Below, in pieces: positions 3-19,026 of a DNA stretch of 20,006 nt. Both the position numbers and the translations under genes were made by a program. This DNA comes from a virus. The notes under the pieces are model-generated. The model did no database searches, had not been told where the DNA came from, and saw nothing but the letters and a program-made list of their open reading frames with translations. Position 1 is the first letter of the stretch. Every line of letters begins with the position of its first letter. The stretch is taken from positions 1-20,006 of the IMG/VR virus record IMGVR_UViG_3300010413_000219; one strand, written 5' to 3'.

Positions 3-134
3 ACTGTAAATAAAATTAGTTCACTTCGACACAATCCTCCGGATGATGTGATTATTGTTACGGGACAACCTAAGAATGGATTATTTAGAAGGACCGTTGA
101 AATTGATTGGCTTGAACAAATGGCAAGAGGATGA
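3..134 (+). CDS. C-terminal end of an unrecognised protein (cut by left edge)
   Basis: An open frame enters from the left edge and ends at TGA 132-134, giving the last 43 residues of a protein whose start lies outside the window. The visible part includes DDVIIVTGQPKNGLFRRTVE and ends WLEQMARG. I do not recognise it. Its stop overlaps the ATG of the next gene in an ATGA arrangement, the same coupling used through the following cassette, so it is probably the preceding gene of the same operon. It could be another modification enzyme or a virion gene; nothing visible decides this. Confidence 0.6.
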   Translation, partial: TVNKISSLRHNPPDDVIIVTGQPKNGLFRRTVEIDWLEQMARG

Positions 135-892
135 TGGAACCAATGTACGTCATATGTTTTTATTGGGAAGGTGATCGGTGGCAACGCAGGGTCAATCCGG
201 AAATTATATCTGATGAATCATATCGTAGACTTGCAGAGAAAACAGGGGATGTATCGTTGGAACTTGCTTCTAAATATGTAAACAATCTCTACCATGGAAT
301 AAAGAAGTTTGCTACCCGGGAATTTGAATTTATCTGTTTTACCAATGAAAATCTGAACCTTGTTGAGAACGTACAGAAGCGTGAATTTCCGATGATCACA
401 AAAACCGGGGTTCTCCCACGAATATTTATGTTCAGTCCAGAAGCCAATCTCTCGGAACGTCAGGTGCTCTGTTTGGACCTTGATGTGATGATCGTGGGTA
501 CTCTGGAGAAAATAATGGGGTATGATGGGCTGTTTTGTGCCCGAAGCAAATTCAAACCAGGTGAAGAATATAAACTGGATGGTGATGTGATGTCATTTCG
601 GGCAGGAGATCAGATTGCTCAATTGTTCTGGGATCCGTTTGTAGCCAACGTAAATGCTGCAGTTGAATTTACTCAGGGAAGAGAACGTTACTGGGTTCGT
701 CATATTGCAGATGAATTTGCAGATCGGTGGGATAATGTTGCTCCCGGTGCTGTACTGAGTTATAAATGGCATATTTCAAAGAAGGGAAGGAAACTTCCAC
801 CGGACGGAGCTTCAATAGTTTCTTTTCATGGGATACCCAGACCTCACCAGGTCAAAATACCGGAACTTAAAAAATTGTGGGATCATGAGTAA
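131..892 (+). CDS. GT8-like glycosyltransferase (GT-A fold)
   Basis: A 253-residue protein that probably transfers a sugar from a nucleotide-sugar donor. An N-terminal strand (YVICFYW) is followed near residues 112-120 by LCLDLDVMI, whose D116-x-D118 fits the metal-binding DxD of GT-A enzymes. Near the C-terminus FHGIPRPH (232-239) resembles the FxGxxKP element of GT8 enzymes. No signal peptide or membrane segment is seen, so it should be cytoplasmic. Three in-frame starts are possible (131, 134, 143). I keep 131 because it makes an ATGA overlap with the preceding stop and an AGAGG lies just before it. The later starts would sit better behind that AGAGG. Donor and acceptor cannot be read from sequence. 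First complete member of the cassette at 131-3889. Confidence 0.72.
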   Translation: MMEPMYVICFYWEGDRWQRRVNPEIISDESYRRLAEKTGDVSLELASKYVNNLYHGIKKFATREFEFICFTNENLNLVENVQKREFPMITKTGVLPRIFMFSPEANLSERQVLCLDLDVMIVGTLEKIMGYDGLFCARSKFKPGEEYKLDGDVMSFRAGDQIAQLFWDPFVANVNAAVEFTQGRERYWVRHIADEFADRWDNVAPGAVLSYKWHISKKGRKLPPDGASIVSFHGIPRPHQVKIPELKKLWDHE

Positions 893-1475
893 CCCTATCT
901 ACCATATAGCTCCAAAGAGAAGTGGTCATGCTTTTGTTGGAAACATGATCAAATCTTGGTGTCCTGGTAGGACCTATTATGATATGGAGGGACATAACCC
1001 GGCTCTTGACAGGGAGAATGGAATCAAGATATTACAGACCCGGGATTTTCTGAATTGGCTGGCTTCATATTCTACATATCATGATAATTGTGATAATCAA
1101 GCAAATACCAGACCCGTACGGGCTTGGTATCTTATTACAAGGTTTATGAATTCACACGATTCAGGTTTTGTAAGTATTGTCTATGATGATTTTGTAGTTG
1201 ATCAGCAATACCGTAAGAATATTTGTACAGCAATTGGTGGAACTTATGATGAAACTATGTTTCTACGGGTGACTGATAATGGAGACGGTAGTACTTTCGA
1301 TAAAATGGATTTTAATGGAAATGCTGATAAAATGAGAGTACTAATAAGGTACAGACAAGTTCCAAAGAAACTTTACGTCAATTTTTTCACCAGATACCCT
1401 TATTATCTGAAGTTTTATAAGAAGATATGTGATGACCCAGTTAAACTTGAATTTTTACAATCTATTGGATTATGA
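885..1475 (+). CDS. Sulfotransferase-like protein, short form
   Basis: A 196-residue protein with the layout of PAPS-dependent sulfotransferases. Residues 9-16 (APKRSGHA) sit where the 5'-phosphosulfate loop belongs. TRDFLNWLASY (52-62) matches the 3'-phosphate element, an Arg followed eight residues later by Ser. YDDFVVD (100-106) matches the later YEDL-type segment before the C-terminal helix. The frame stays open back to 828, but ATG 885 is chosen because it gives the protein-like start MSNPIYHIAP and an 8-base overlap with the previous gene; earlier starts would overlap it by over 60 bases. It is shorter than typical cellular sulfotransferases (about 250-350 residues), as is common for phage forms. 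The loop is degenerate, so a related nucleotide-binding role is possible. Confidence 0.6.
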   Translation: MSNPIYHIAPKRSGHAFVGNMIKSWCPGRTYYDMEGHNPALDRENGIKILQTRDFLNWLASYSTYHDNCDNQANTRPVRAWYLITRFMNSHDSGFVSIVYDDFVVDQQYRKNICTAIGGTYDETMFLRVTDNGDGSTFDKMDFNGNADKMRVLIRYRQVPKKLYVNFFTRYPYYLKFYKKICDDPVKLEFLQSIGL

Positions 1476-1705
1476 TTGAATTGGGTAAAAATATAGCATT
1501 GGCCAATTTCCTGATGAAATATGCAGAGAGAATAACAACTGCAGATGGAAATACCTACTATCGGTTTGATGGTTGGTTCCAGATGATTCCCGGAGATTAT
1601 GAATTCGTTTTCCATAGGGATAATTGGCCAGAGGATTTAAGTCAGTTTGTAACCAAAGCAGGATTGGGAGGTGACAATATACAAATAGAACAACCGGAGT
1701 TATGA
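1472..1705 (+). CDS. Small phage protein of unknown function (77 aa)
   Basis: A 77-residue acidic protein, ATGA-coupled on both sides (starts in the stop of the upstream gene; its own stop overlaps the next start at 1702). It has an N-terminal helix-like part (ALANFLMKYAERI), a Tyr/Phe-rich stretch (TYYRFDGWFQ) and a C-terminal segment FVFHRDNWPEDLSQFVTKAG. The last part recalls small alpha-beta phage proteins of the ABA-sandwich type, which often end in a FxxDW...LMxVVxKI pattern. That likeness is weak and by eye. Its place between two enzyme genes suggests a small partner or an old insertion, but no function is claimed. Confidence 0.6.
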   Translation: MIELGKNIALANFLMKYAERITTADGNTYYRFDGWFQMIPGDYEFVFHRDNWPEDLSQFVTKAGLGGDNIQIEQPEL

Positions 1706-2586
1706 TAAAACTATTGGCACACGATGCTTCATATGGTAACTGCGTTGGTATATACCATGCTCTGAAGAGGAATAGTTCTGTTCAGGTATACTTTCGGTAT
1801 AGGGACCGAAAGAAAATGTATGGTATGGTTCCACATAAGTTTGGTTATAAAAAGGCACTCCCGATCAGGAATCAAACAGTTGTTATTGTAGCAGGATGCA
1901 CTCTTGATGAAGTTCTTGAAATCTATGGAGAAAGTGTTTTGGATAACAAGAGAGTGAAGGTTATCCTAACTGATACTTATTATCGTGTACACCATGAAAG
2001 ATTAGACTCTTTAATGGAGGGAATGCAAATATATTGTATGCCTGATCTTTCCCGGTTCTGTTCATTACCTCATAAGATATTCTATCATCCTATGGAAATA
2101 TCAGTTCCTGACAGGAAGGAAAAGAAATTGACGATTTCTCATTCTCCATTCATTGAATCAAAGAAAAAAGTAAAAGGGACTGAACTAATTGAGAAGGCCA
2201 TACAGAATCTTTCAGAAGAATATGATCTGAACTATAAATGTATCATGCATGTAATATGGAAGAGATCTGTTCATATCAAGGCACGATCTCATATTTTCAT
2301 CGATCAGGTTTTGAGTCCGAATGGAGATGCCTGGGCAGGTGGAATAGGAAAATCTGGATTGGAAGCAATGTTGGCAGGTTGTTTAACATTCACTTCTGGA
2401 GAGGTTCATTTCCCAGATTCTGAAATACCAGATTGCCCTGTGGTTTGGGTGACTCCAGAAAATCTCCAGGATAAGTTGCAGTATTACCTTGATCATCCTA
2501 CCGAACGTAAGGATCTTGCCGCTGAACAAAAAGAATGGGCTAAGACATATTTGAATTATGAATTTCAATCATTATACCTGAGATGA
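1702..2586 (+). CDS. GT-B glycosyltransferase (GT4-like)
   Basis: A 294-residue protein whose C-terminal half looks like the donor-binding domain of group 1 glycosyltransferases. ISHSPFIESKKKVKGTEL (145-162) matches the common HSP...KGT stretch at the start of that domain. GKSGLEAMLAG (216-226) fits the E-x7-E region that contacts the donor ribose or diphosphate, and the helix after the Pro-Val-Val-Trp-Val strand (247-251) is also typical. The N-terminal half is shorter than usual, so this is a compact enzyme. No secretion signal is visible; it should be cytoplasmic. It overlaps both neighbours by four bases. Sugar and acceptor are unknown. Confidence 0.7.
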   Translation: MIKLLAHDASYGNCVGIYHALKRNSSVQVYFRYRDRKKMYGMVPHKFGYKKALPIRNQTVVIVAGCTLDEVLEIYGESVLDNKRVKVILTDTYYRVHHERLDSLMEGMQIYCMPDLSRFCSLPHKIFYHPMEISVPDRKEKKLTISHSPFIESKKKVKGTELIEKAIQNLSEEYDLNYKCIMHVIWKRSVHIKARSHIFIDQVLSPNGDAWAGGIGKSGLEAMLAGCLTFTSGEVHFPDSEIPDCPVVWVTPENLQDKLQYYLDHPTERKDLAAEQKEWAKTYLNYEFQSLYLR

Positions 2587-3176
2587 TAGACTACGAAAAA
2601 ATATATAATAGTCCTACATCTACAAAAAAGGTGGATGCTTCATGGGAGCGATACATGGTTCCTTCCGGTGAGGATAAAACCCGGGAAAGGTATGAATGGT
2701 CTGTTTCCCACCTGCATGGTTCAGTTCTGGATATAGGGGCAGGTGATGGATTTGGAGCATACCTGATGTTACAAAGACCGGATATTTACAGTATAACATG
2801 TCTGGAAGTCCAAAAGAAAGCAATTGAGCAAATGAAAAAGCACCTGAATGGAAGTGGTGTTGAAATTATCCAGGGAGCTATTGAGTATGTGAGTCTGGGA
2901 AAAGGATTTGACAGCGTTCATTGTGGTCATACTTTAGAGCATGTTGAACATTTCGGATTGGCAATGGAAGGAATAATGAGACATGCCATGAACCGGATTG
3001 TTATTTCAGTTCCACTAAATGGTGGAATTAATGGAATGCATCTGAGAGAATTTACTTCCAAAGATCAGGTGATAGAATTGATGAAAGGATATTTCCATGT
3101 AATTGGATTTAAAGAATTTAGGAAGGATAACAGAGTTAGTAGTTTAGTAGTAATAGGAAATAAAAGAACAATATGA
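2583..3176 (+). CDS. Class I SAM-dependent methyltransferase
   Basis: A 197-residue methyltransferase. Motif I is VLDIGAGDGFG (48-58), the SAM-binding glycine loop. Glu75 in CLEVQ is the acidic residue expected at the end of the second strand. DSVHCGHTLEHV (110-121) matches the motif IV region of Methyltransf_11/25-type enzymes, in which a His is often retained. No DNA-methyltransferase motif (DPPY/NPPY) is present, so a small-molecule, glycan or protein substrate is more likely than DNA. It sits between a glycosyltransferase and a sulfotransferase gene with four-base overlaps on both sides, which makes sugar O-methylation a reasonable inference. Confidence 0.82.
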   Translation: MIDYEKIYNSPTSTKKVDASWERYMVPSGEDKTRERYEWSVSHLHGSVLDIGAGDGFGAYLMLQRPDIYSITCLEVQKKAIEQMKKHLNGSGVEIIQGAIEYVSLGKGFDSVHCGHTLEHVEHFGLAMEGIMRHAMNRIVISVPLNGGINGMHLREFTSKDQVIELMKGYFHVIGFKEFRKDNRVSSLVVIGNKRTI

Positions 3177-3889
3177 ATGCACCAATCTTAATCACAGGCT
3201 GTGCACGTTCTGGTACCTCAATGGTGGCAGGGATTATTAATATATGTGGAGCATTTGGAGGGGATATGTCCGGACCTACTCCTAATAATAGGAAAGGGAT
3301 GTTTGAAAATGCCCGTATCCGGAATGCAATTGTGAAGCCTTATTACAGATCGATTGGAGTGGATCCACTCGGGCAGTATCCATTACCGGATATAAATAAT
3401 CTACGGTTTCCTGCTGATTGGCAGAATAGAGTAGAAACTGTAATGAAAGAAGAAGGTTATAAAGATGGACCGTGGATGTACAAAGGGGCCAAAATGTGTC
3501 AACATTGGACTGTGTGGCACTTTGCTTTTCCGAATGCCAAGTGGGTGATTGTACGAAGGAAGACTCCTGATATCATTAGGAGTTGTATGCATACCAATTT
3601 CATGAGGGCGTTTCAGAAACCTGCAAACCAGAAAGCTGTTCGTGCTAAAAATGAATATGAAGGTTGGCTCTGGTGGGTTCATCAGCATGAGTTTCGATTT
3701 ATAGAAATGATGCAGGAAGGGCTCAACACAGATATCGTATGGCCAGACCGTATGGTAGATGGAGATTTCAGGCAAATGCAACAAATGATAGAATGGCTCG
3801 GATTGGAATGGAAAGAAAAGGAAGTAAAAGAATTTATAGAGCCACAATTATGGAAAGCAAAACAAGGATTTAAAACCGTGAAACCATGA
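3173..3889 (+). CDS. Sulfotransferase family protein
   Basis: A 238-residue protein with clear sulfotransferase signatures. The N-terminal phosphate loop is ITGCARSGTSMVAGI (7-21), the GxxRSGTS form of the 5'-phosphosulfate loop. KGMFENARI (41-49) is the usual segment after it. KWVIVRRKTPDIIRS (123-137) is the strand and 3'-phosphate element, with Arg129 and Ser137 at the expected spacing. The expected reaction is sulfuryl transfer from PAPS to a hydroxyl, most likely on a sugar given the neighbours. It is distinct from the shorter sulfotransferase-like protein at 885-1475, which it resembles only in the two motifs. Its stop overlaps the first connector gene (ATGA at 3886-3889), so enzyme and virion genes share a transcript. 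Confidence 0.8.
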   Translation: MNAPILITGCARSGTSMVAGIINICGAFGGDMSGPTPNNRKGMFENARIRNAIVKPYYRSIGVDPLGQYPLPDINNLRFPADWQNRVETVMKEEGYKDGPWMYKGAKMCQHWTVWHFAFPNAKWVIVRRKTPDIIRSCMHTNFMRAFQKPANQKAVRAKNEYEGWLWWVHQHEFRFIEMMQEGLNTDIVWPDRMVDGDFRQMQQMIEWLGLEWKEKEVKEFIEPQLWKAKQGFKTVKP

Positions 3890-4260
3890 GCAGAAGAACA
3901 GATGCAACGAGAGTTAAAGCGATCTATTCAACATCGTTGACAAATTTTGCTGTTGAAAGTTATATAGATGTAGCTGCAGATATAGTTGATGAATTGGACA
4001 GTGATACTACTCTTGGAGATACCAGATTGGAATTAATCGAGCGATATTTGACTGCACATCTGATTGCCTTTACCAACGAAAGAATTGGTATCAGGGAGAA
4101 AATTGGTGATGCCGAAATTACTTATGCTGGTAAGTTCGGGGAAGAGATTATGGGGACACCATGGGGTCAGACTGCTGCAATGTTAGATACTTCAGGAACT
4201 TTGAGGTCTATTGGTAAAAGAAAAATTTCAATCAAAGCAATTACAAGTTTTGACACATGA
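3886..4260 (+). CDS. Head-tail connector/adaptor protein (DUF4054/gp6-like)
   Basis: A 124-residue mostly helical protein. The run RYLTAHLIAF (53-62), then a Gly-rich linker and MGTPWGQTAAMLDTSGTL (92-109), matches the pattern of DUF4054/HK97 gp6-like connectors, which have LAAHLL helices followed by a TPYGQ segment. These proteins form a ring under the portal and link head to tail. Placement supports it: the head-closure, gp10-like, terminator and tail tube genes follow in the standard order. ATGA overlaps on both sides. Identity rests on motif and gene order, not on a database hit. Confidence 0.72.
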   Translation: MSRRTDATRVKAIYSTSLTNFAVESYIDVAADIVDELDSDTTLGDTRLELIERYLTAHLIAFTNERIGIREKIGDAEITYAGKFGEEIMGTPWGQTAAMLDTSGTLRSIGKRKISIKAITSFDT

Positions 4261-4664
4261 GCACACCTGCATTCATATCAAAGCACTTCAAGCAGACAAT
4301 TGTTTATTGGGCTGCACCGGTACCTGATGGTTATGGAGGACATACCTATACAGCACCAGTTGAATTGGATTGCCGTATAGAGGAAGTAATTGAAATCATT
4401 CAATCTGAAATGGATGAAGAGATTATTTCCCGGGCTGCAGCTTATCTGGATCGTCAGTTGGACAGAGGAGGATATGTCTACGTTGGTACCCTTGATGATT
4501 CTGTGATTGATGATTCAGCTGCCTCTGAGGATCCCAAGAATGTAGAAGGGGCCATGGTGATTTTGGCAAATGAGAAGATACCGAGGTTGGGAAGCAACTC
4601 TGAATTTATGTATAAAGTTTATTTGAATGTAACTAAAGAACTCAGACCACCTTATGTGAAATAA
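4257..4664 (+). CDS. Head closure / stopper protein
   Basis: A 135-residue beta-rich protein. The N-terminal part (FKQTIVYWAAPVPDGYGG, then a Cys-Arg-Ile-Glu strand) has the look of phage head-tail joining or stopper proteins, where a strand with YW, a DGYGG turn and a C-R-I/W strand are common. Such proteins cap the connector after DNA packaging. A helical, acidic insertion in the middle (about 44-70, EEVIEIIQSEMDEEIISRAA) is longer than I would expect. It lies exactly between the adaptor and gp10-like genes, overlapping the first and one base from the second. Confidence 0.62.
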   Translation: MSTPAFISKHFKQTIVYWAAPVPDGYGGHTYTAPVELDCRIEEVIEIIQSEMDEEIISRAAAYLDRQLDRGGYVYVGTLDDSVIDDSAASEDPKNVEGAMVILANEKIPRLGSNSEFMYKVYLNVTKELRPPYVK

Positions 4665-4665
4665 A

Positions 4666-5160
4666 ATGGCACTTACACCAGGAACATATAATAAGATCAC
4701 CGGATATGCTCAACAGACCCGGTTATTGGGAATTGAGAAAGTTACTTCCAATCTTGAATCGGTATTTCGTACACTGAAGGTTGGAAGCAGACTTTCAATG
4801 GAGAGAATGATGATCTTGTTACGTGGTGCAATGGATAAAGAAGCTCCAAAGATTCCTGTTGATCTGGGTAAACTCAGGGCAAGTTGGTTTACCAAGTTTG
4901 TAAATGTGGGAGCTGTCCATGGAGTGATCTTTGGTTTCAGTGCAAACTACGCTTTGTATGTTCATGAAATGGTGGGTGCCGATTTTGTCACTCCTCGTTG
5001 GAGATATGGTCCCGGACCTGGAAAGAAACGCTGGTATGTGCCAAGACCTGGAGCAGGGCCAAAGTTCATGGAAACTCACATGAAGAGATTGGAGCCCAAG
5101 TTTTATGATATACTATTAACAGAATTTAGAGAACGAATCAGAAACCAGACAAGACTATGA
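4666..5160 (+). CDS. HK97 gp10-like tail completion protein
   Basis: A 164-residue protein of the HK97-gp10-like type, a neck/tail completion component. Visible signatures are a helix followed by APKIPVDLGKLRASW (62-76), which matches the family's APVDTGxLRxS, then ANYALYVHEMVG (95-106), matching YAxYVHE, and a C-terminal PKFMETHMK (137-145), matching the family's KFLExA. A Pro/Gly/Arg-rich loop (about 107-135) separates the last two. Start at 4666 lies one base after the previous stop; the stop overlaps the next start by ATGA. Confidence 0.82.
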   Translation: MALTPGTYNKITGYAQQTRLLGIEKVTSNLESVFRTLKVGSRLSMERMMILLRGAMDKEAPKIPVDLGKLRASWFTKFVNVGAVHGVIFGFSANYALYVHEMVGADFVTPRWRYGPGPGKKRWYVPRPGAGPKFMETHMKRLEPKFYDILLTEFRERIRNQTRL

Positions 5161-5549
5161 ATTTTGCAAGTGAGGATATTAAGGATATGCTTGAGGATAG
5201 TACTTTGGGATTAACATTCGCAAGCAATCTGTTTATCGGTAGAAATCCAAAATCACCGGATAATACCGTAACAATCTTTGATACCGAAGGGTTTGCTCCA
5301 GAGCCTACTTTGGACAAAGATGTGATGTTGTACAATAGTTCGGTCATGCTTCATATCCGGAATAATAAATATGAAGTAGGATTGACATTAGCACATAATA
5401 TAATGGACCATCTACATTCCCGGGCACAAGAAGAATGGAATGGTACGCTATATACAGCCATCCGTGCAGCAGGTGAACCTGCCCTGTTGAGTTGGGATGA
5501 CAACGAGAGAGCTATTTTCAGTATTAACTTTAATATGAAAAGGAGGTAA
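5157..5549 (+). CDS. Tail terminator / minor capsid-like protein
   Basis: A 130-residue protein in the position of the tail terminator, directly before the tail tube gene. It has an N-terminal helix (SEDIKDMLED), the strand set LFIGRNPKSPDNTVTIFDT, a central strand VMLHIRNNKYEVGL followed by an amphipathic helix (AHNIMDHLHSRAQ), and a last strand IFSINFNMKRR. This order is usual for tail terminator and Minor_capsid-type proteins that form a ring at the top of the tail. Its last two Arg codons (AGG AGG) double as the Shine-Dalgarno site of the tail tube gene. Confidence 0.66.
   Translation: MNFASEDIKDMLEDSTLGLTFASNLFIGRNPKSPDNTVTIFDTEGFAPEPTLDKDVMLYNSSVMLHIRNNKYEVGLTLAHNIMDHLHSRAQEEWNGTLYTAIRAAGEPALLSWDDNERAIFSINFNMKRR
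5541..5546 (+). promoter_or_regulatory. Strong Shine-Dalgarno site of the tail tube gene
   Basis: AGGAGG lies five bases before the ATG at 5552. It is the only perfect consensus site I found ahead of a gene start in this window; most other starts rely on overlap with the upstream stop or have AT-rich leaders. It fits the high copy number of tail tube subunits. Confidence 0.8.
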
Positions 5550-5551
5550 AT

Positions 5552-5980
5552 ATGGCTAGCAATGCAGTTGCCGGTGTCGGCACTAGTTTTAGACGGTACA
5601 GCGGAGGAGCCTGGGCAGCACTTGCCGAGGTGAATTCAATTTCTGGACCATCTATGACCCGGGACTTCATTGATGTGACTTCTCTTGACTCCACAGGGGG
5701 TTACCGGGAGTTCATCACTGGTTTCCGGGATGCAGGTACTATCCAGCTTACCATGAACTTCACAAGAGCTACGTTCGATCTAATGAAGACCGACTTTGAG
5801 AGTTCCACTGCCGTATCGTACGAAATCGTACTTTCTGATAGTGAGAATACCTCACTGGAGTTCGAAGGTTTGGTAACTGAGATTCCGCTAGAGATATCTG
5901 CTGACGATAAGATTACCGCTTCGGTAACAATTAAGATTTCCGGAGAAGTAACTGTCAACAGTGGATCAGGCTCTGGATAA
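5552..5980 (+). CDS. Major tail tube protein
   Basis: A 142-residue beta-rich protein with the lambda gpV/TP901-type tail tube pattern. Residues 37-51 (RDFIDVTSLDSTGGY) are the hallmark DVTS...STGG strand-turn, followed by the REF..G and GTIQLTMNF strand pair. The C-terminal part ends with alternating strands (KITASVTIKISGEVTV) and a short Gly/Ser tail. Hundreds of copies polymerise into the tail tube around the tape measure. The gene has a perfect AGGAGG and a base composition nearer 50% G+C over much of its length, against clearly AT-richer neighbours, as expected of a highly translated gene. A hairpin follows the stop. Confidence 0.88.
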   Translation: MASNAVAGVGTSFRRYSGGAWAALAEVNSISGPSMTRDFIDVTSLDSTGGYREFITGFRDAGTIQLTMNFTRATFDLMKTDFESSTAVSYEIVLSDSENTSLEFEGLVTEIPLEISADDKITASVTIKISGEVTVNSGSGSG

Positions 5981-12456: not shown

Positions 12457-15400
12457 ATGGATGTAACTGTTGTTGAAGCATTTGTTGATCCTGATTTTTT
12501 TGGAGAGAAAACATCACCTACTTATGCATTTGCAAGTGGTGGAGGTGGAGGAGGTGTTTCTGGTATCCTTTGGAGTGGATCTACTCCATATGGAATAGGA
12601 ACTTATCTTGATGCAGGTACTATTGTAGCAAATCAATACCTTACATTTGATGGTACTTCTCTGGATATATTGAATGGTGCCTATCTAAATCAGTATTCCA
12701 GATATGCTTTAATCGGGGCCGATGCGGTTGGTGGTACAGTTAGAACTGATGCTGAGCCTAAGAATGGAGCGATTGCTGTTCCACATGCTACTAATGCTGA
12801 AGAACCAGTTTTGGCATTTGATATAGTGAGTGATGGATCAGATAATTTCCTGCGTTTTGGTGGAGGATACAGTGCTTATAATGCTATTACGGAGATGCGG
12901 TTTTATGCTGCTGCCAATAATACAACAACTACTGGAACACAGGTGGCTTCCTTATCATTGACAGGATTATCCATAGATATCATTAATGAATTTACTACAG
13001 ATGCTGGAGTAACCATAGAAGGTGTAGAATTACAGAATGGAATAATTACTCTTGGAGAAGATAGTGTACCAGCACAGATGTATGTAGACTCGGCTGGTGC
13101 TTTGGTTTTTATAGACAGTATTGGAGGACCTTATGAATTGAGTGAATTAATTGCTGGAGGGACTTTTATTGGTTTACCTGATACTCCTGCCAATTACACC
13201 AGTTCTGGTGGATTTCTGGTTATGGTTAATGCTACTCCAGATGCTTTGGAATTTGTGGATCCTTCTGGTTATGGACTATCAAATTTTGATAATGATTCTG
13301 GCTTTATAACAGGTAATCAAAGTATAACATTATCCGGTGATGTTACTGGTAGTGGGACAACTTCAATAACTACAACTATTGCCAACGATGCAGTAGAATC
13401 TGGTATGTTGAATGACAATGTTATTTCAGGTCAAACGGCTTTGACTTCTGGATTAGCAGGAACAGACGAATTATTTGTTAGTGATGGAGGAGTTTTAAAA
13501 CGTATGGATGTAAGTGTTATGAATGCTTACTTTGATGCAAATCTTTCTTTCCTTACGGGTAATGAAAGTATCACTCTATCAGGGGATGTATCTGGTTCCG
13601 GTACTACATCTATTGCAGTTACTATTGCTGCAGCTGCTGTTGAGAGTAGCATGTTGAACAATAATGTTATCTCCGGGTTGACTGCTCTTACATCTGGCCT
13701 TGTTTCCACTGATGAATTGATGATTAGTGATGCTGGGGTAATCAAACGCATGGACGTGAGCGTTATTGAAGCCTATATGCAGAGCAATCTTAGTTTCGGT
13801 ACAGGAGATGGTACAGTCACTTCAGTAGCTGCTGGTAATGGAATGAGCTTTACTACTATCAATACAACCGGTTCGGTGACAATGGGAACTCCTTCCACGT
13901 TAACGGCTGCTACTTCTAACGCTGTTACTGCAACAAGTCACACTCACGCAATTACAGGTTTTCTTACAGGTAATGAAACAATTACTTTATCAGGAGATGT
14001 ATCTGGTAGTGGTGCTACATCCATAGCTGTTACAATAGCTGCTTCTGCAGTGGAAGCCAGTATGATTAACAATAATGCTATTTCTGGGAAGACAGCACTG
14101 ACTTCTGGATTAGCGTCAACAGATGAACTATGGATAAGTGATGCCGGTACAATTAAACGAATGGACGTATCGGTCCTTCAGACTTATATGCAAGACAATC
14201 TTTCATTCAGTGCTGGTACTGTAACGGCTTCTGGAACTTTAACTAATAATTATGTCATAGTTGGTAATGGAACAACAGATGTATCAATTGCCGATGCTGC
14301 AGTCAATTTTAATAGTCAAACAATAACCGGTTTAGGAGCTACATCGTTTGGTTCAGCCGCCAGTGAATATCTGATTCAGGATAGTGGTACTGTTCGTTAC
14401 AGAGTTCCAGCAGGGGTGCTTTCAGATATTTCTCCCTTGACTACAAAGGGAGATATCATGGCATATTCTACTCTAAACACTCGTCTTGGAGTAGGATCAA
14501 ATGGTCAAGTTCTTTCTGCAAATAGTACTACAGCAACCGGATTAGAGTGGACTGATCCTACAGGTGGTATTGATATGACCAATGGTGCTAATAACCGTGT
14601 TGTAACTGCTGTAGATACAGATACTATTAATGGTGAAGCAAATCTCACATTTGATGGTACTACTTTGACAGTTGCTGGTGTTATTAAGTCAACGGGTGGA
14701 AACCCAGTTTTTTATTCTACTGGAGAAGCCGATACACGGTTGACATTTAATGTTTCTGGAGGCAGTGTGACTCAAATATATTATTGGGATGAGGGAGATA
14801 GTTTGTTTCAAGATATTCAGATAGGAACAAATTCATCAAACATTGGAATAATTTGGGATAATAGTGAGACCAGTGTTGGGATTAATACAAGTACTCCTGC
14901 TGCAACATTAGATGTGAATGGAGATGTTTTAGGAGACAATTTAGTAAATGCTCAATATGGAATATTTACCAGCATTGATTCAGCTGCTCAATGGTATACT
15001 TTAGCGGAAACAAATGGAGGGGATCATGCAATGGCAATAGTTACTGTTATGGGTTATGATACCAGTGATCATGCTGCTGCAAAGTTTATTATATCTTGGC
15101 ATTATGGTCAGGGACAGATAACACAAATTGCTGGTGAATCTTATTTGAATTATGAATTTTCTGAGGTTGGTTTATTCTACAATGATGCAGATCGTGCCAA
15201 TAATGGTGGAAGATTTGCTGTTCTATTAGAACCTGGAGCCACTGTACGAGTAATGATAGAAGATTATAATGTAAGTAACTCTTATAGCGAATGGATTATC
15301 TATGAACCAGATTCTTCTGGTGATTGGGGAGATCAAACAGGTTGGACTCAATTTCAGTCATTAACCAATGTTCATAATACACCACTTGCTACAACAGGAA

Positions 15401-16278
15401 TTACAAGATTGGGCAGTAATGTTTTTATAGCTTCAAATACATTTATTGGGGATGACACAACTACTCGTAAAAGTGGATACAATAATACACTAAATATAGC
15501 TTCAATTGGTAGTGCTGAGATATCAACGTTGGAATTGGTAGGTAATCAAACTACAAATAGTCCTGTGGGAAGTATCACATTCCATAATACACAATCTGGT
15601 ACAACCTATGATATCATTGGATATATGACAGTAGAAAGATATAATGATAATGATGCAGGTAGGATGTATATCGGCCTATCGGATTCCAGTGCCAACTTAC
15701 GTGTCATGAAGGAAATGATGGCTGACCACCATTATTGGTATATAAACGGTACATCAGAGATGATATTAGATGCTAATTATCTCTATCCTACAACTACATT
15801 GGGTCTTGGTCTTGGGGATTCAACTCATGTATGGAGTACCTCATATATCAATCGTGTTTATTTACCCGGCACTCCTAATACAAATAGGGCTGAAACACTT
15901 CAATTTTATACAACTGATGGAGCAGTATCTTACTATGATGATACATCGGATATCCGTTTAAAGCAGGACATTATAAGGATTGAAAATGCTTCGGAAAGAA
16001 TTAAGCAATGGGAATGTTTCACTTTTCGGTTCAATGATCTGGCCAAGGAAGTAATGGGACATGATACTGAAATGATTCGTCTTGGTATCTCAGCACAATC
16101 AGTTCAATCCAATACTCCTCAAGCTGTGACGGTAAAAGACAATGGATATCTGAAGTTGTGGTATACTGATTTGATACCGGTATTGGCTGCAGGACACAAT
16201 GAACATACGGGTGAAATTGATAAATTGAAAAAAGAAATAGAGATATTGAAAAAACAAATGCAAACTCTATTAAATTAA
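12457..16278 (+). CDS. Tail fiber with S74 intramolecular chaperone
   Basis: A 1273-residue trimeric-type fiber. A short N-terminal attachment part leads into SGGGGGGVSG (27-36), then beta-repeat shaft regions. Residues about 286-584 hold three copies of an 82-residue unit. A SHTHAITG motif (in the spacer before copy 3) is of the type seen in metal-binding fiber shafts. VGINTSTPAATLDVNGDV (about 807-824) is a common segment of S74-family fibers. From about 1160 the chaperone domain begins with TSDIRLKQDI, the self-cleavage site of endosialidase-type chaperones, and ends in a coiled coil (EIDKLKKEIEILKKQMQTL). The receptor-binding part is probably the unique region of roughly 830-1160. It is the likely host-range determinant. 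Confidence 0.88.
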   Translation: MDVTVVEAFVDPDFFGEKTSPTYAFASGGGGGGVSGILWSGSTPYGIGTYLDAGTIVANQYLTFDGTSLDILNGAYLNQYSRYALIGADAVGGTVRTDAEPKNGAIAVPHATNAEEPVLAFDIVSDGSDNFLRFGGGYSAYNAITEMRFYAAANNTTTTGTQVASLSLTGLSIDIINEFTTDAGVTIEGVELQNGIITLGEDSVPAQMYVDSAGALVFIDSIGGPYELSELIAGGTFIGLPDTPANYTSSGGFLVMVNATPDALEFVDPSGYGLSNFDNDSGFITGNQSITLSGDVTGSGTTSITTTIANDAVESGMLNDNVISGQTALTSGLAGTDELFVSDGGVLKRMDVSVMNAYFDANLSFLTGNESITLSGDVSGSGTTSIAVTIAAAAVESSMLNNNVISGLTALTSGLVSTDELMISDAGVIKRMDVSVIEAYMQSNLSFGTGDGTVTSVAAGNGMSFTTINTTGSVTMGTPSTLTAATSNAVTATSHTHAITGFLTGNETITLSGDVSGSGATSIAVTIAASAVEASMINNNAISGKTALTSGLASTDELWISDAGTIKRMDVSVLQTYMQDNLSFSAGTVTASGTLTNNYVIVGNGTTDVSIADAAVNFNSQTITGLGATSFGSAASEYLIQDSGTVRYRVPAGVLSDISPLTTKGDIMAYSTLNTRLGVGSNGQVLSANSTTATGLEWTDPTGGIDMTNGANNRVVTAVDTDTINGEANLTFDGTTLTVAGVIKSTGGNPVFYSTGEADTRLTFNVSGGSVTQIYYWDEGDSLFQDIQIGTNSSNIGIIWDNSETSVGINTSTPAATLDVNGDVLGDNLVNAQYGIFTSIDSAAQWYTLAETNGGDHAMAIVTVMGYDTSDHAAAKFIISWHYGQGQITQIAGESYLNYEFSEVGLFYNDADRANNGGRFAVLLEPGATVRVMIEDYNVSNSYSEWIIYEPDSSGDWGDQTGWTQFQSLTNVHNTPLATTGITRLGSNVFIASNTFIGDDTTTRKSGYNNTLNIASIGSAEISTLELVGNQTTNSPVGSITFHNTQSGTTYDIIGYMTVERYNDNDAGRMYIGLSDSSANLRVMKEMMADHHYWYINGTSEMILDANYLYPTTTLGLGLGDSTHVWSTSYINRVYLPGTPNTNRAETLQFYTTDGAVSYYDDTSDIRLKQDIIRIENASERIKQWECFTFRFNDLAKEVMGHDTEMIRLGISAQSVQSNTPQAVTVKDNGYLKLWYTDLIPVLAAGHNEHTGEIDKLKKEIEILKKQMQTLLN
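13312..14208 (+). repeat. Three 82-residue fiber repeats, two in tandem
   Basis: Copies begin at 13312, 13558 and 13969, each starting GNxSITLSGDV (third: GNETITLSGDV) and running through ALTSGL..TDEL..SD.G..KRMDVSV. The first two abut (246 bp apart); the third is separated by a 57-residue spacer (13798-13968) with GDGTVTSVAAGNG and SHTHAITG. Protein copies are close while many third codon positions differ, so the duplication is not recent and the protein sequence is under constraint. Confidence 0.8.
15946..16278 (+). other. Peptidase S74 chaperone domain, predicted release fragment
   Basis: Ser1164 (codon 15946-15948) in TSDIRLK is the predicted nucleophile, with Lys1169 five residues on. 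In endosialidase and T5 fibers the peptide bond just before this Ser is cut after the fiber has trimerised. Here that would release the last 110 residues and leave a mature fiber of 1163. The key residues of the SDxRLK motif are all present. Confidence 0.8.
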
Positions 16279-17078: not shown

Positions 17079-17403
17079 AATCTTTCAAGTTAACAAACTT
17101 CCATACAAAACCACCAGCAGTCTTGGCTTTCCTTTTACCAGCAGCACATCTACCTATATCTGATGGATCAACACCGGTTTTACGGGAAGCCTCGGCTGCA
17201 CTTTCATATATTTCAATTATCTTTCCTTCGGTAGTACATTGTACAATAGCCTTTTGAAATGAATGTGCTTTCTTACCAGCATCAAAGCCAGCAGAGTATG
17301 CTTGCATGAGACGATTGTAAACTTCCCATTCATTGTCTTCATTGACAATTCCAAGATCCATTAATTCAGCAAATAATCTTCCGGCTATTACTTCCTGTTT
17401 CAT
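17032..17403 (-). CDS. Orphan NUMOD1-like DNA-binding protein
   Basis: A 123-residue protein. Residues about 50-104 match the NUMOD1 pattern of homing-endonuclease DNA-binding modules: KAIVQCTTEGKIIEIYESAA, then EASRKTGVDPSDIGRCAAGK and AGGFVWKF. These make a small strand-helix-turn-helix unit. There is no HNH or GIY-YIG nuclease domain; the N-terminal 45 residues (GRLFAELMDLGIV, NRLMQAYSAGFDAGKKA) are helical and unlike a nuclease. It is therefore a stand-alone module, perhaps a regulator or remnant. Its start overlaps the upstream gene's stop (ATGA, 17400-17403), and its 3' end overlaps the oppositely oriented spanin gene by 47 bases. Confidence 0.7.
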   Translation of the reverse strand: MKQEVIAGRLFAELMDLGIVNEDNEWEVYNRLMQAYSAGFDAGKKAHSFQKAIVQCTTEGKIIEIYESAAEASRKTGVDPSDIGRCAAGKRKAKTAGGFVWKFVNLKDSTASEKQIIESLQSK

Positions 17404-17702
17404 GCTGTTGGATTTGGTTTTATCAATCCACCATCTGCAAAAGATTTGATTGGCTTTGTTGTAAAATTATCAAATCTTGAAAGAGCTAAAGCTGCTGCAT
17501 CAGCTGCATCAGCTGCATCTTTCATCATTCTTGTTGATATTCCGAGTTCAAGAGTAGTTTTTAATCTTTCAGTCAACAAGGAAGATGGGATTATTACCTC
17601 TGGATGTGAGGAAATTCCAAAGGTAATGTTGGATTTCTTCTCTTCCTTTTTATCATTCAACAAATGATATAAATCCCATTCTTCCTTACTAAGATATTCC
17701 AT
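17400..17702 (-). CDS. Phage protein of unknown function (100 aa)
   Basis: A 100-residue protein, not recognised. It starts with a helix rich in charged residues (YLSKEEWDLYHLLNDKKEEKK broken by Leu/Tyr), has a middle with a strand-like EVIIPSSLL, then an Ala/Asp tract DAADAADAAALAL coded by a 9-base tandem repeat. It ends KSFADGGLIKPNPTA; SFADGGLI resembles the SFAKGGLV of the tape measure C-terminus. Two bases separate it from the upstream 264-residue gene, and it is ATGA-coupled to the NUMOD1-like gene. No membrane helix. Confidence 0.6.
   Translation of the reverse strand: MEYLSKEEWDLYHLLNDKKEEKKSNITFGISSHPEVIIPSSLLTERLKTTLELGISTRMMKDAADAADAAALALSRFDNFTTKPIKSFADGGLIKPNPTA
17494..17520 (-). 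repeat. 9-bp tandem repeat, three copies
   Basis: GCTGCATCA is repeated at 17494 and 17503, with GCTGCATCT at 17512 (plus-strand reading). On the minus strand it codes three Asp-Ala-Ala units. It is a likely slippage-prone in-frame tract. Confidence 0.85.
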
Positions 17703-17704
17703 AA

Positions 17705-18499
17705 CTAATTATCAAGTGGATTTGCAAGTTCTGGATCATTTGCTTCCAATCCCCACTTGGTTAGTACCTGGATACCACCACGGACATAACGGAATACAAT
17801 TGGATCCTTTGTTTCATGTATGACCATGGATTTGAAGAATCCTAACTTTCCGTGTTTTTTCAATCCTTTCAAATTGAAATGAGATTTCGGAGCTGCTATA
17901 AATAAACTACTTTCCCTTTCTATCTTTTCTCTATTAATGGAAGAATAAACATATCCGGAATGTGCTACAGGAGAATATCTGTTAAACCAATCATCAGTTC
18001 CAGGTCTTTCCTCAAATTCAGTGTACAATATCCAATCTTTCATCTCCTGTGGAACATCACTGTAAAATTCTACTGAAGTTATTTTCCAGATATCTTTAGC
18101 TATATCTTCTTCTTTTAATTCCTGTGCTGAGAGAACATCATTGAGATTCTTTTCCGGTACATCTTCCAGGTAACGATCCACCGGACCATGGATAAGATCA
18201 TACTTTTCACAAATCTCATCCAGTTTTTCTATTGTCAGGAATTTCAAGAATGGATAAGTCCGTTTGTAATAAACGATCAATTCAGCCATCTCTGCATTTT
18301 TCACTGCAACTTTCAAGCGTTGATTTGTTTCTTCCACAATTTTGGCATTCCGGAATCCGGCTTCTACCATCTTCGTAATATGAGAAGTATCTGTGATGTG
18401 ATTACTCTCAATGATTTCATGAGCTTGTTCCAACAATACATCTTCAGCATTGTCAAATGCATTGTGGATTTCCTGTACTAAAACTTGTTCTTTTTTCAT
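17705..18499 (-). CDS. Phage protein of unknown function (264 aa)
   Basis: A 264-residue soluble, acidic protein. The N-terminal third is helical (AFDNAEDVLLEQAHEIIES; NAKIVEETNQRLKVAVKNAE), followed by YPFLKFLTIEKLDEICEKYD and LIHGPVDRYLEDVPEKNL, a pattern I associate with uncharacterised Bacteroidota phage proteins. The C-terminus is a beta/loop region ending GGIQVLTKWGLEANDPELAN. No catalytic motif, signal peptide or membrane segment was found. The start at 18499 follows an AT-rich leader ending TTCTAATC, as for the plus-strand gene at 16301. It is 11 bases downstream of the Tat-signal gene in the same operon. Confidence 0.66.
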   Translation of the reverse strand: MKKEQVLVQEIHNAFDNAEDVLLEQAHEIIESNHITDTSHITKMVEAGFRNAKIVEETNQRLKVAVKNAEMAELIVYYKRTYPFLKFLTIEKLDEICEKYDLIHGPVDRYLEDVPEKNLNDVLSAQELKEEDIAKDIWKITSVEFYSDVPQEMKDWILYTEFEERPGTDDWFNRYSPVAHSGYVYSSINREKIERESSLFIAAPKSHFNLKGLKKHGKLGFFKSMVIHETKDPIVFRYVRGGIQVLTKWGLEANDPELANPLDN

Positions 18500-18510
18500 G
18501 ATTAGAAATT

Positions 18511-19026
18511 TTAATTTATGTTTTCATTAATAAATGCTTCTCCCGATACTCTGAATTCAAATGAACTTACCAGTGGATGATCAATCTGTGCCATGGTATT
18601 TATACTAACAATCAATCCATCCGCTTCTACCGTAAAACTTTTATCCGGTCCCGATACTACGCAATGGAGTAATTCTTCACTATTAAATAGTTCCCATTCT
18701 GTTGTATTATCTACCAGCATTGTTAGATCACCACTTATTATTACTTCTAGTTTGCCAGGCCAGAAAGTTCTATAAGGAAGATCATTGGATGTAGTGATTT
18801 CAATTGTATCCCTATTCATTTCAATATTACAATTGGCTATTGCACAAACCTGTTCTGCACCTCTGTAGATATATCCTGCTTCATATTGTATTTGTTTTAC
18901 TTTAGGAACTTCAGGTTCTTCTGGAACTGGTTTATTGAGTAATTCATATAATTCCAATTCAGGTTTTGAAAGTAGAGCACCAGCTCCCAAACCAGCCAAT
19001 TTAAAAAATTCTCTACGATCCATCAT
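18511..19026 (-). CDS. Tat-signal protein with tail-tube-like beta domain
   Basis: A 171-residue protein. The N-terminus DRREFFKLAGLGAGALLS (3-20) is a clear twin-arginine signal (RRxFFK, then a mildly hydrophobic segment), predicting folded export across the inner membrane by Tat. No obvious AxA cleavage site follows, so it may stay anchored. A Pro/Glu linker (33-42) leads to a beta-rich domain (about 45-168). This resembles the tail tube protein at 5552-5980: RDTIEITTSNDLPYRTF beside the tube's RDFIDVTS...YREF, and SFEFRVSGEAFI beside SVTIKISGEVTV, in the same order and at similar spacing. I infer a tail-tube-like fold. Starts at 19026 or 19023 are both possible; 19026 makes the ATGA overlap. 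Confidence 0.66.
   Translation of the reverse strand: MMDRREFFKLAGLGAGALLSKPELELYELLNKPVPEEPEVPKVKQIQYEAGYIYRGAEQVCAIANCNIEMNRDTIEITTSNDLPYRTFWPGKLEVIISGDLTMLVDNTTEWELFNSEELLHCVVSGPDKSFTVEADGLIVSINTMAQIDHPLVSSFEFRVSGEAFINENIN

Follow-up and report, generated by a model that had tools for sequence, protein, structure and literature searches.

Why would a tailed phage carry enzymes of surface chemistry inside the operon that assembles its virion? The question is raised by a stretch of viral DNA of 20,006 bases (the window), which is the complete IMG/VR record IMGVR_UViG_3300010413_000219 and is best explained as a fragment of a tailed-phage genome, comprising the left part of a siphovirus-type late morphogenesis operon from an uncultured lineage. 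Six overlapping open reading frames (ORFs) at positions 131-3889 run into a head-tail connector gene at 3886-4260. An initial annotation had taken the six for one cassette of two glycosyltransferase (GT), two sulfotransferase and one methyltransferase gene plus a small ORF, co-translated with virion genes and serving late decoration of the virion or the cell surface. Comparison with related loci divides them into two layers: the last gene, ST2 (3173-3889, plus strand), is constant within the head-tail block, whereas the genes before it can be exchanged and in some cases are missing. Late decoration of the virion or cell surface is still the best reading, and the enzymes are proposed to decorate virion proteins and to sulfate that decoration, with a probability of about 0.55.

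ST2, conserved in the head-tail block

Single-sequence scans of IMG/VR with the first two cassette genes (GT1 and ST1) and the tape measure gene returned no relatives, and the family work was therefore based on ST2 and the tail terminator. The ST2 scan retrieved 80 viral loci at 47-73% identity, and a separate tail-terminator scan retrieved 44; a further terminator query yielded only contigs already in the set. Gene order was read with profiles built from the window genes, and nearly all loci (referred to by L numbers) display the order ST2, first connector (conn1), second connector (conn2), neck, terminator and tail tube. About 100 IMG/VR contigs carry a member of the ST2 family, in most cases immediately upstream of the connector genes, and ST2 is present in 21/21 terminator-fetched contigs having at least 1 kb before conn1, a few of which had also come from the ST2 scan. 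As some contigs are near-copies, contig counts are not counts of independent lineages.

In the 79 loci with all six genes, the median pairwise identity of ST2 is 55%, compared with 40% for conn1, 40% for conn2, 37% for the neck protein, 44% for the terminator and 57% for the tail tube. The distances between ST2 sequences follow those between the structural genes (Mantel r 0.64, 0/2000 permutations), and the median ratio of nonsynonymous to synonymous substitution rates (dN/dS) is 0.11 in the 16 pairs with unsaturated dS; ST2 is under purifying selection. Within this uncultured phage lineage, ST2 belongs to the core of the head-tail block, and no recognisable relative of either ST2 or the terminator was found in a cultured phage among 50,697 phage records. 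In four loci (L015, L017, L018 and L079), ST2 lies after conn1, usually preceded by a GT-like gene, so the cassette can occupy either side of conn1.

Recent capture of ST2 from a cell was considered and rejected, as the family is rare in sampled genomes (about 1% or less), cell genes stand apart from phage genes in a weakly supported tree, and ST2 tracks the structural genes. Cellular relatives adjoining a purD-like gene were seen in gammaproteobacterial genomes (L127:9977-10657 and L148:1447-2163). Host assignment through contigs of metagenome-assembled genomes (Deltaproteobacteria, Firmicutes, Spirochaetota and Bacteroidota) was rejected as unsafe because one such contig, examined in full, resembles a phage contig and not a chromosome.

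Enzyme class and sulfate donor of ST2

Sulfotransferases of the kind considered here draw sulfate from the donor 3'-phosphoadenosine 5'-phosphosulfate (PAPS), which is made by adenosine 5'-phosphosulfate (APS) kinase. ST2 matches Pfam PF13469 (Sulfotransfer_3) with 31.9 bits against a curated cut-off of 27, and the same family is matched by 48/48 aligned ST2 relatives at E ≤ 0.01. The structure-prediction check suggested with the initial annotation gave a sulfotransferase fold for ST2, with an AlphaFold (AF2) model at a predicted local distance difference test score (pLDDT) of 93.4 and a predicted template modelling score (pTM) of 0.90. The best 24 structure matches of this model in VIA-align are all sulfotransferases (Z 10.9-15.2). 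They are led by the human and tick tyrosylprotein sulfotransferases (TPST1/2), which are the closest solved folds at Z 14.8-15.2, followed by bacterial and heparan sulfotransferases at Z about 13 and below, and the Foldseek ranking is concordant.

Both PAPS-binding motifs are shared with TPST1 and TPST2, and both stretches align with TPST1, at 16-19% sequence identity in the structural alignments; the ST2 profile matches the TPST family weakly (E 0.007) and over part of the chain only. Residues R12, S13 and G14 of the phosphosulfate loop and R129 of the 3'-phosphate site are present in 79/79 sequences, and S137 in 77/79. Profile, fold, PAPS-binding residues and linkage place ST2 by class among the PAPS-dependent sulfotransferases, with catalytic activity predicted accordingly from sequence and model. 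The top fold rank of the TPSTs offers a lead towards protein tyrosine as acceptor, and not a test of it.

Evidence on the donor comes from a neighbouring gene. A neighbour of about 130 residues directly adjoins ST2 in 27 distinct contigs and, in 22 of these, separates it from conn1. Two proteins of this neighbour family were scanned, and both score above the APS kinase (CysC, PF01583) cut-off of 21 bits, at 58 and 60 bits, in matches that leave the C-terminal part of the profile uncovered. Its presence on the ST2 tree needs about nine changes, which indicates that APS kinase was gained or lost repeatedly, each time adjoining ST2, and this adjacency is independent evidence for PAPS use by ST2. 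In one locus (L026:7273-7992), the APS kinase adjoining ST2 is fused to a cytidylyltransferase-like (nucleotidyltransferase-like) domain and is possibly a two-step PAPS-forming enzyme. No APS kinase gene was found in the window, so this phage would have to use host PAPS.

An exchangeable cassette before ST2

The ORF and junction check reproduced the six ORFs, their coordinates and their overlaps as first described: 131-892 and 885-1475 overlap by 8 bases, and the junctions at 1472, 1702, 2583, 3173 and 3886 are each a 4-base ATGA. The cassette does not, as had been supposed, start at 131. The left end of the contig cuts a seventh, GT-like gene, of which the C-terminal end is visible (3-134, plus strand, open at its 5' side). 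This end shares 4 bases with GT1, and the full cassette must extend beyond the part contained in the record. Its product is 70% identical over 34 amino acids (aa) to that of L003 5363-6046 and ends similarly to cassette genes in L008, L038 and L024. Coupling of the enzymes to the head-tail genes in one operon was borne out, and no terminator-like site was found on the coding strand between the cassette and connector genes. The overlaps themselves are not special, however: several structural genes share them (e.g., the 3886/4257 and 4666/5157 pairs), so they speak for one operon without setting the enzymes apart, and a special meaning for them was rejected.

The proposed enzyme classes fared unevenly. 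Along with ST2, profiles confirmed GT1 (131-892), a glycosyltransferase with a match to PHROG 1962 (E 3.9e-20) and a DxD-like LDLDVM motif, and MT (2583-3176), an S-adenosylmethionine (SAM)-dependent methyltransferase matching Pfam Methyltransf_11 (E 2.6e-9). GT2 (1702-2586) is probably a GT-B-type glycosyltransferase; its own match to Glyco_trans_1_2 is below the cut-off, yet that of its relative in L009 exceeds it (27.5 versus 25 bits). No family in Pfam, PHROGs or NCBIfam matches ST1 (885-1475), and its single-sequence structure model reaches a pLDDT of 35 only. Read by eye, its PKRSGHAF loop and R-x7-S stretch (RDFLNWLAS) resemble the 5'- and 3'-phosphosulfate-binding motifs of PAPS-type enzymes, and "sulfotransferase-like" describes this resemblance of motifs alone, making ST1 an unproven, possible sulfotransferase. 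The small ORF (1472-1705, 77 aa; family sm) recurs in 7 sequences, mostly directly upstream of ST2. All these genes lie on the plus strand.

The suggestion that the cassette be followed as a block through related genomes gave a divided answer, with ST2 kept throughout and the other genes reshuffled. Between the capsid-side genes and ST2 there are 1 to 10 genes spanning 1.3-7.4 kb (42 contigs), and 229/232 cassette genes lie on the same strand. The first of them is usually GT-like (37/44 contigs), and a Pfam census of 148 cassette proteins includes methyltransferases, family 2 glycosyltransferases, MptE-like proteins, epimerases, GDP-mannose dehydratases, sulfotransferases and radical SAM proteins. 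For pairs of loci with 45-90% core identity, the median identity is 64% for ST2, whereas 17% of cassette families are shared. Genes of the window recur elsewhere in other combinations, with GT2 and MT in L008, ST1 and GT2 in L009, and the small ORF in L082 and L004. Two loci, L110 and L125, are without a cassette and have the order capsid, small protein, ST2 and conn1; the 50 kb contig of L125 encodes one family-2-like glycosyltransferase elsewhere, as judged by eye from its N-terminus.

A second sulfotransferase family, forming a separate group on the tree, recurs upstream of ST2 and was observed inside the cassettes of L005, L008, L010, L014, L020, L024, L035, L038 and L077. In addition, a conserved protein of about 120 aa is encoded directly after the capsid gene and before the cassette (e.g., L004:5103-5462). 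It has no Pfam match and is a candidate capsid accessory protein and a possible target of modification.

What the enzymes may modify

The genes before ST2 are best read as a variable surface-chemistry cassette of glycosyltransferases, methyltransferases, sugar-nucleotide enzymes and a second sulfotransferase family, held in the interval from capsid to connector. In the most likely mechanism, the cassette would build or attach a glycan on a virion protein late in infection, and ST2, made together with the head and tail proteins, would use PAPS to sulfate either this glycan or a virion protein itself. A phage-encoded APS kinase could maintain the supply of PAPS in many relatives. We infer late co-expression, activity of the enzymes and an acceptor that belongs to the virion, as opposed to the host surface. 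The wider proposal is that a whole lineage has made virion sulfation part of morphogenesis, with a dedicated ST2 in every member that modifies a protein of the head or tail or the glycan on it, PAPS synthesis encoded by some of the phages, and a coat diversified through exchange of the glycan cassette; this is put forward tentatively, at somewhat less than even odds.

Several points weigh against virion decoration as the explanation. A position in a late operon is no proof of a virion product, and late enzymes could alter the cell envelope. ST2 without an adjacent cassette in L110 and L125 means that its substrate need not be a cassette glycan. The window, lacking APS kinase, depends on host PAPS, and not all hosts have PAPS. 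Finally, both the acceptor and the activity of ST2 are predictions from sequence and models, and a virion protein, its glycan and the cell surface are candidate acceptors between which sequence cannot distinguish.

A sub-case that overlaps with virion decoration is that ST2 sulfates a virion protein directly, on tyrosine or another side chain and independently of the cassette. The closest folds are TPSTs, with Z about 15 versus 13 for the next sulfotransferases, the ST2 profile aligns with TPST1/2, and ST2 is constant while the cassette is not; bacterial tyrosine sulfation is also known (RaxST, PMC6637879). Yet the TPST match in sequence is weak and partial, fold rank does not give the acceptor, and a glycan cassette is adjacent in 42/44 contigs; direct sulfation is rather unlikely. 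Late remodelling of the host surface is unlikely. Here, the cassette and ST2 would modify envelope polysaccharide, for example to keep progeny from re-adsorbing to debris or to shut out superinfecting phages. GDP-mannose dehydratase, GT2-type glycosyltransferases and methyltransferases are indeed genes of envelope polysaccharide synthesis, and one sulfotransferase relative in a cell genome (L144) adjoins a second sulfotransferase-like gene and an MptE-like gene. However, of the 70 cassette families, the top 25 include none recognised as a flippase, a polymerase or an undecaprenyl-phosphate transferase. Modification of the virion is favoured over remodelling of the host surface because ST2 is fixed in the head-tail block across the lineage and is kept without the cassette, both of which fit a virion substrate better. 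It is very improbable that ST2 is a sulfotransferase-fold protein that has lost catalysis and holds its nearly universal place between capsid and connector genes through a structural or assembly role, as the PAPS-binding residues are invariant (apart from S137, in 77 of the 79 sequences) and an adjoining APS kinase would have no reason without PAPS chemistry.

Related systems

A diverged ST2 relative with 39% identity is found in a cultured alphaproteobacterium, Euryhalocaulis caribicus, in which it lies between the portal and head protease genes and overlaps a sialyltransferase-like gene. The order of this head module (portal, sialyltransferase-like, ST2 relative, protease and capsid) was counted in favour of a virion acceptor; the sulfotransferase lies inside a head module, with a gene order different from that of the window lineage. 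The surrounding provirus-like region (L128:4997-19998; NZ_ASJA01000008, strain JL2009) contains terminase, portal, sialyltransferase-like, ST2 relative, head protease, capsid, tail tube and tape measure genes.

Like phage virion glycosylation systems, the window and its relatives have phage-encoded glycosyltransferase genes (GT1 and the cassette census). Mycobacteriophages Che8 and Rita are reported to have glycans on capsid proteins together with phage GT genes, and, as in the window, the glycosyltransferases are phage-encoded, being proposed there to act on capsid proteins (PMC11256854, citing other work). In Maravista, related to Che8 and Rita, the GT genes are located close to the genome's 3' end, with no mention of sulfation in that account (PMC11256854), whereas here a constant sulfotransferase lies inside the head-tail block. 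GT1 also has relatives in cultured phages, one of which clusters with sulfotransferase and methyltransferase genes. This is Pelagibacter phage Mosig EXVC030M, where the cluster is annotated as sulfotransferase, glycosyltransferase and methyltransferases; it differs in being a 141 kb genome of the Kyanoviridae, and the 10.6 kb examined there contain no annotated structural gene. In Citrobacter phage phiNP, the GT1 relative stands beside a sialyltransferase-like gene in a row just upstream of the packaging genes, but no sulfotransferase is annotated in the stretch examined and the cluster precedes the terminase instead of lying between capsid and connector.

Phage sulfotransferases have likewise been described. 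Sulfotransfer_3 genes in OM43 phages were counted among the auxiliary metabolic genes, and what they do in phages "remains unclear" (PMC10580990); a sulfotransferase also occurs in glacier viruses (PMC8290583). The OM43 study found the gene in a few genomes (two metagenomic viral genomes (MVGs); PMC10580990), whereas in the lineage described here its presence is nearly universal and its position syntenic. Glycosylation and sulfotransferases are both already known from phages; what appears to be new, within the literature searched, is a sulfotransferase as a lineage-wide gene of the morphogenesis operon. No account of such a lineage was found in the open-access literature searched, most subscription papers being outside its scope, and no report of a sulfated phage particle was found there either, a scope that is not proof of absence.

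Other genes of the window

Downstream of ST2, the window encodes connector, neck, tail terminator, tail tube and tape measure proteins, together with a large protein that bears an intramolecular chaperone (Peptidase_S74). The connector protein conn1 (3886-4260) matches PHROG 302, a virion structural protein (E 2.5e-4), and weakly Pfam DUF4054, and its family has 108 members among the collected loci. The second connector, conn2 (4257-4664), has a weak match to PHROG 3881 and conserved synteny. These are followed by the neck or tail completion protein (4666-5160; PHROG 5, E 7e-9), the tail terminator (5157-5549; Pfam PF12691, E 1e-16) and the major tail (tube) protein (5552-5980; PHROG 158, E 4e-22, and Pfam Phage_TTP), all on the plus strand. 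The large protein of 1273 aa (12457-16278), with the Peptidase_S74 chaperone domain at its end, is probably a tail fibre or spike and has few relatives in the collected loci. Minus-strand genes follow the tail genes at 17400-19026, of which 18511-19026 has a weak match to the major tail protein family PHROG 1407 (E 2e-4).

Implications for virion chemistry

A constant ST2 in the head-tail block, paired with PAPS synthesis, turns a vague auxiliary-gene label into a testable claim on virion chemistry, and the related provirus-like region in a cultured bacterium offers a starting place for testing it. If true, lineage-wide virion sulfation would, as far as the literature searched shows, provide the first known sulfated phage particle, and sulfated coats could affect adsorption, the stability of the particle and its recognition.

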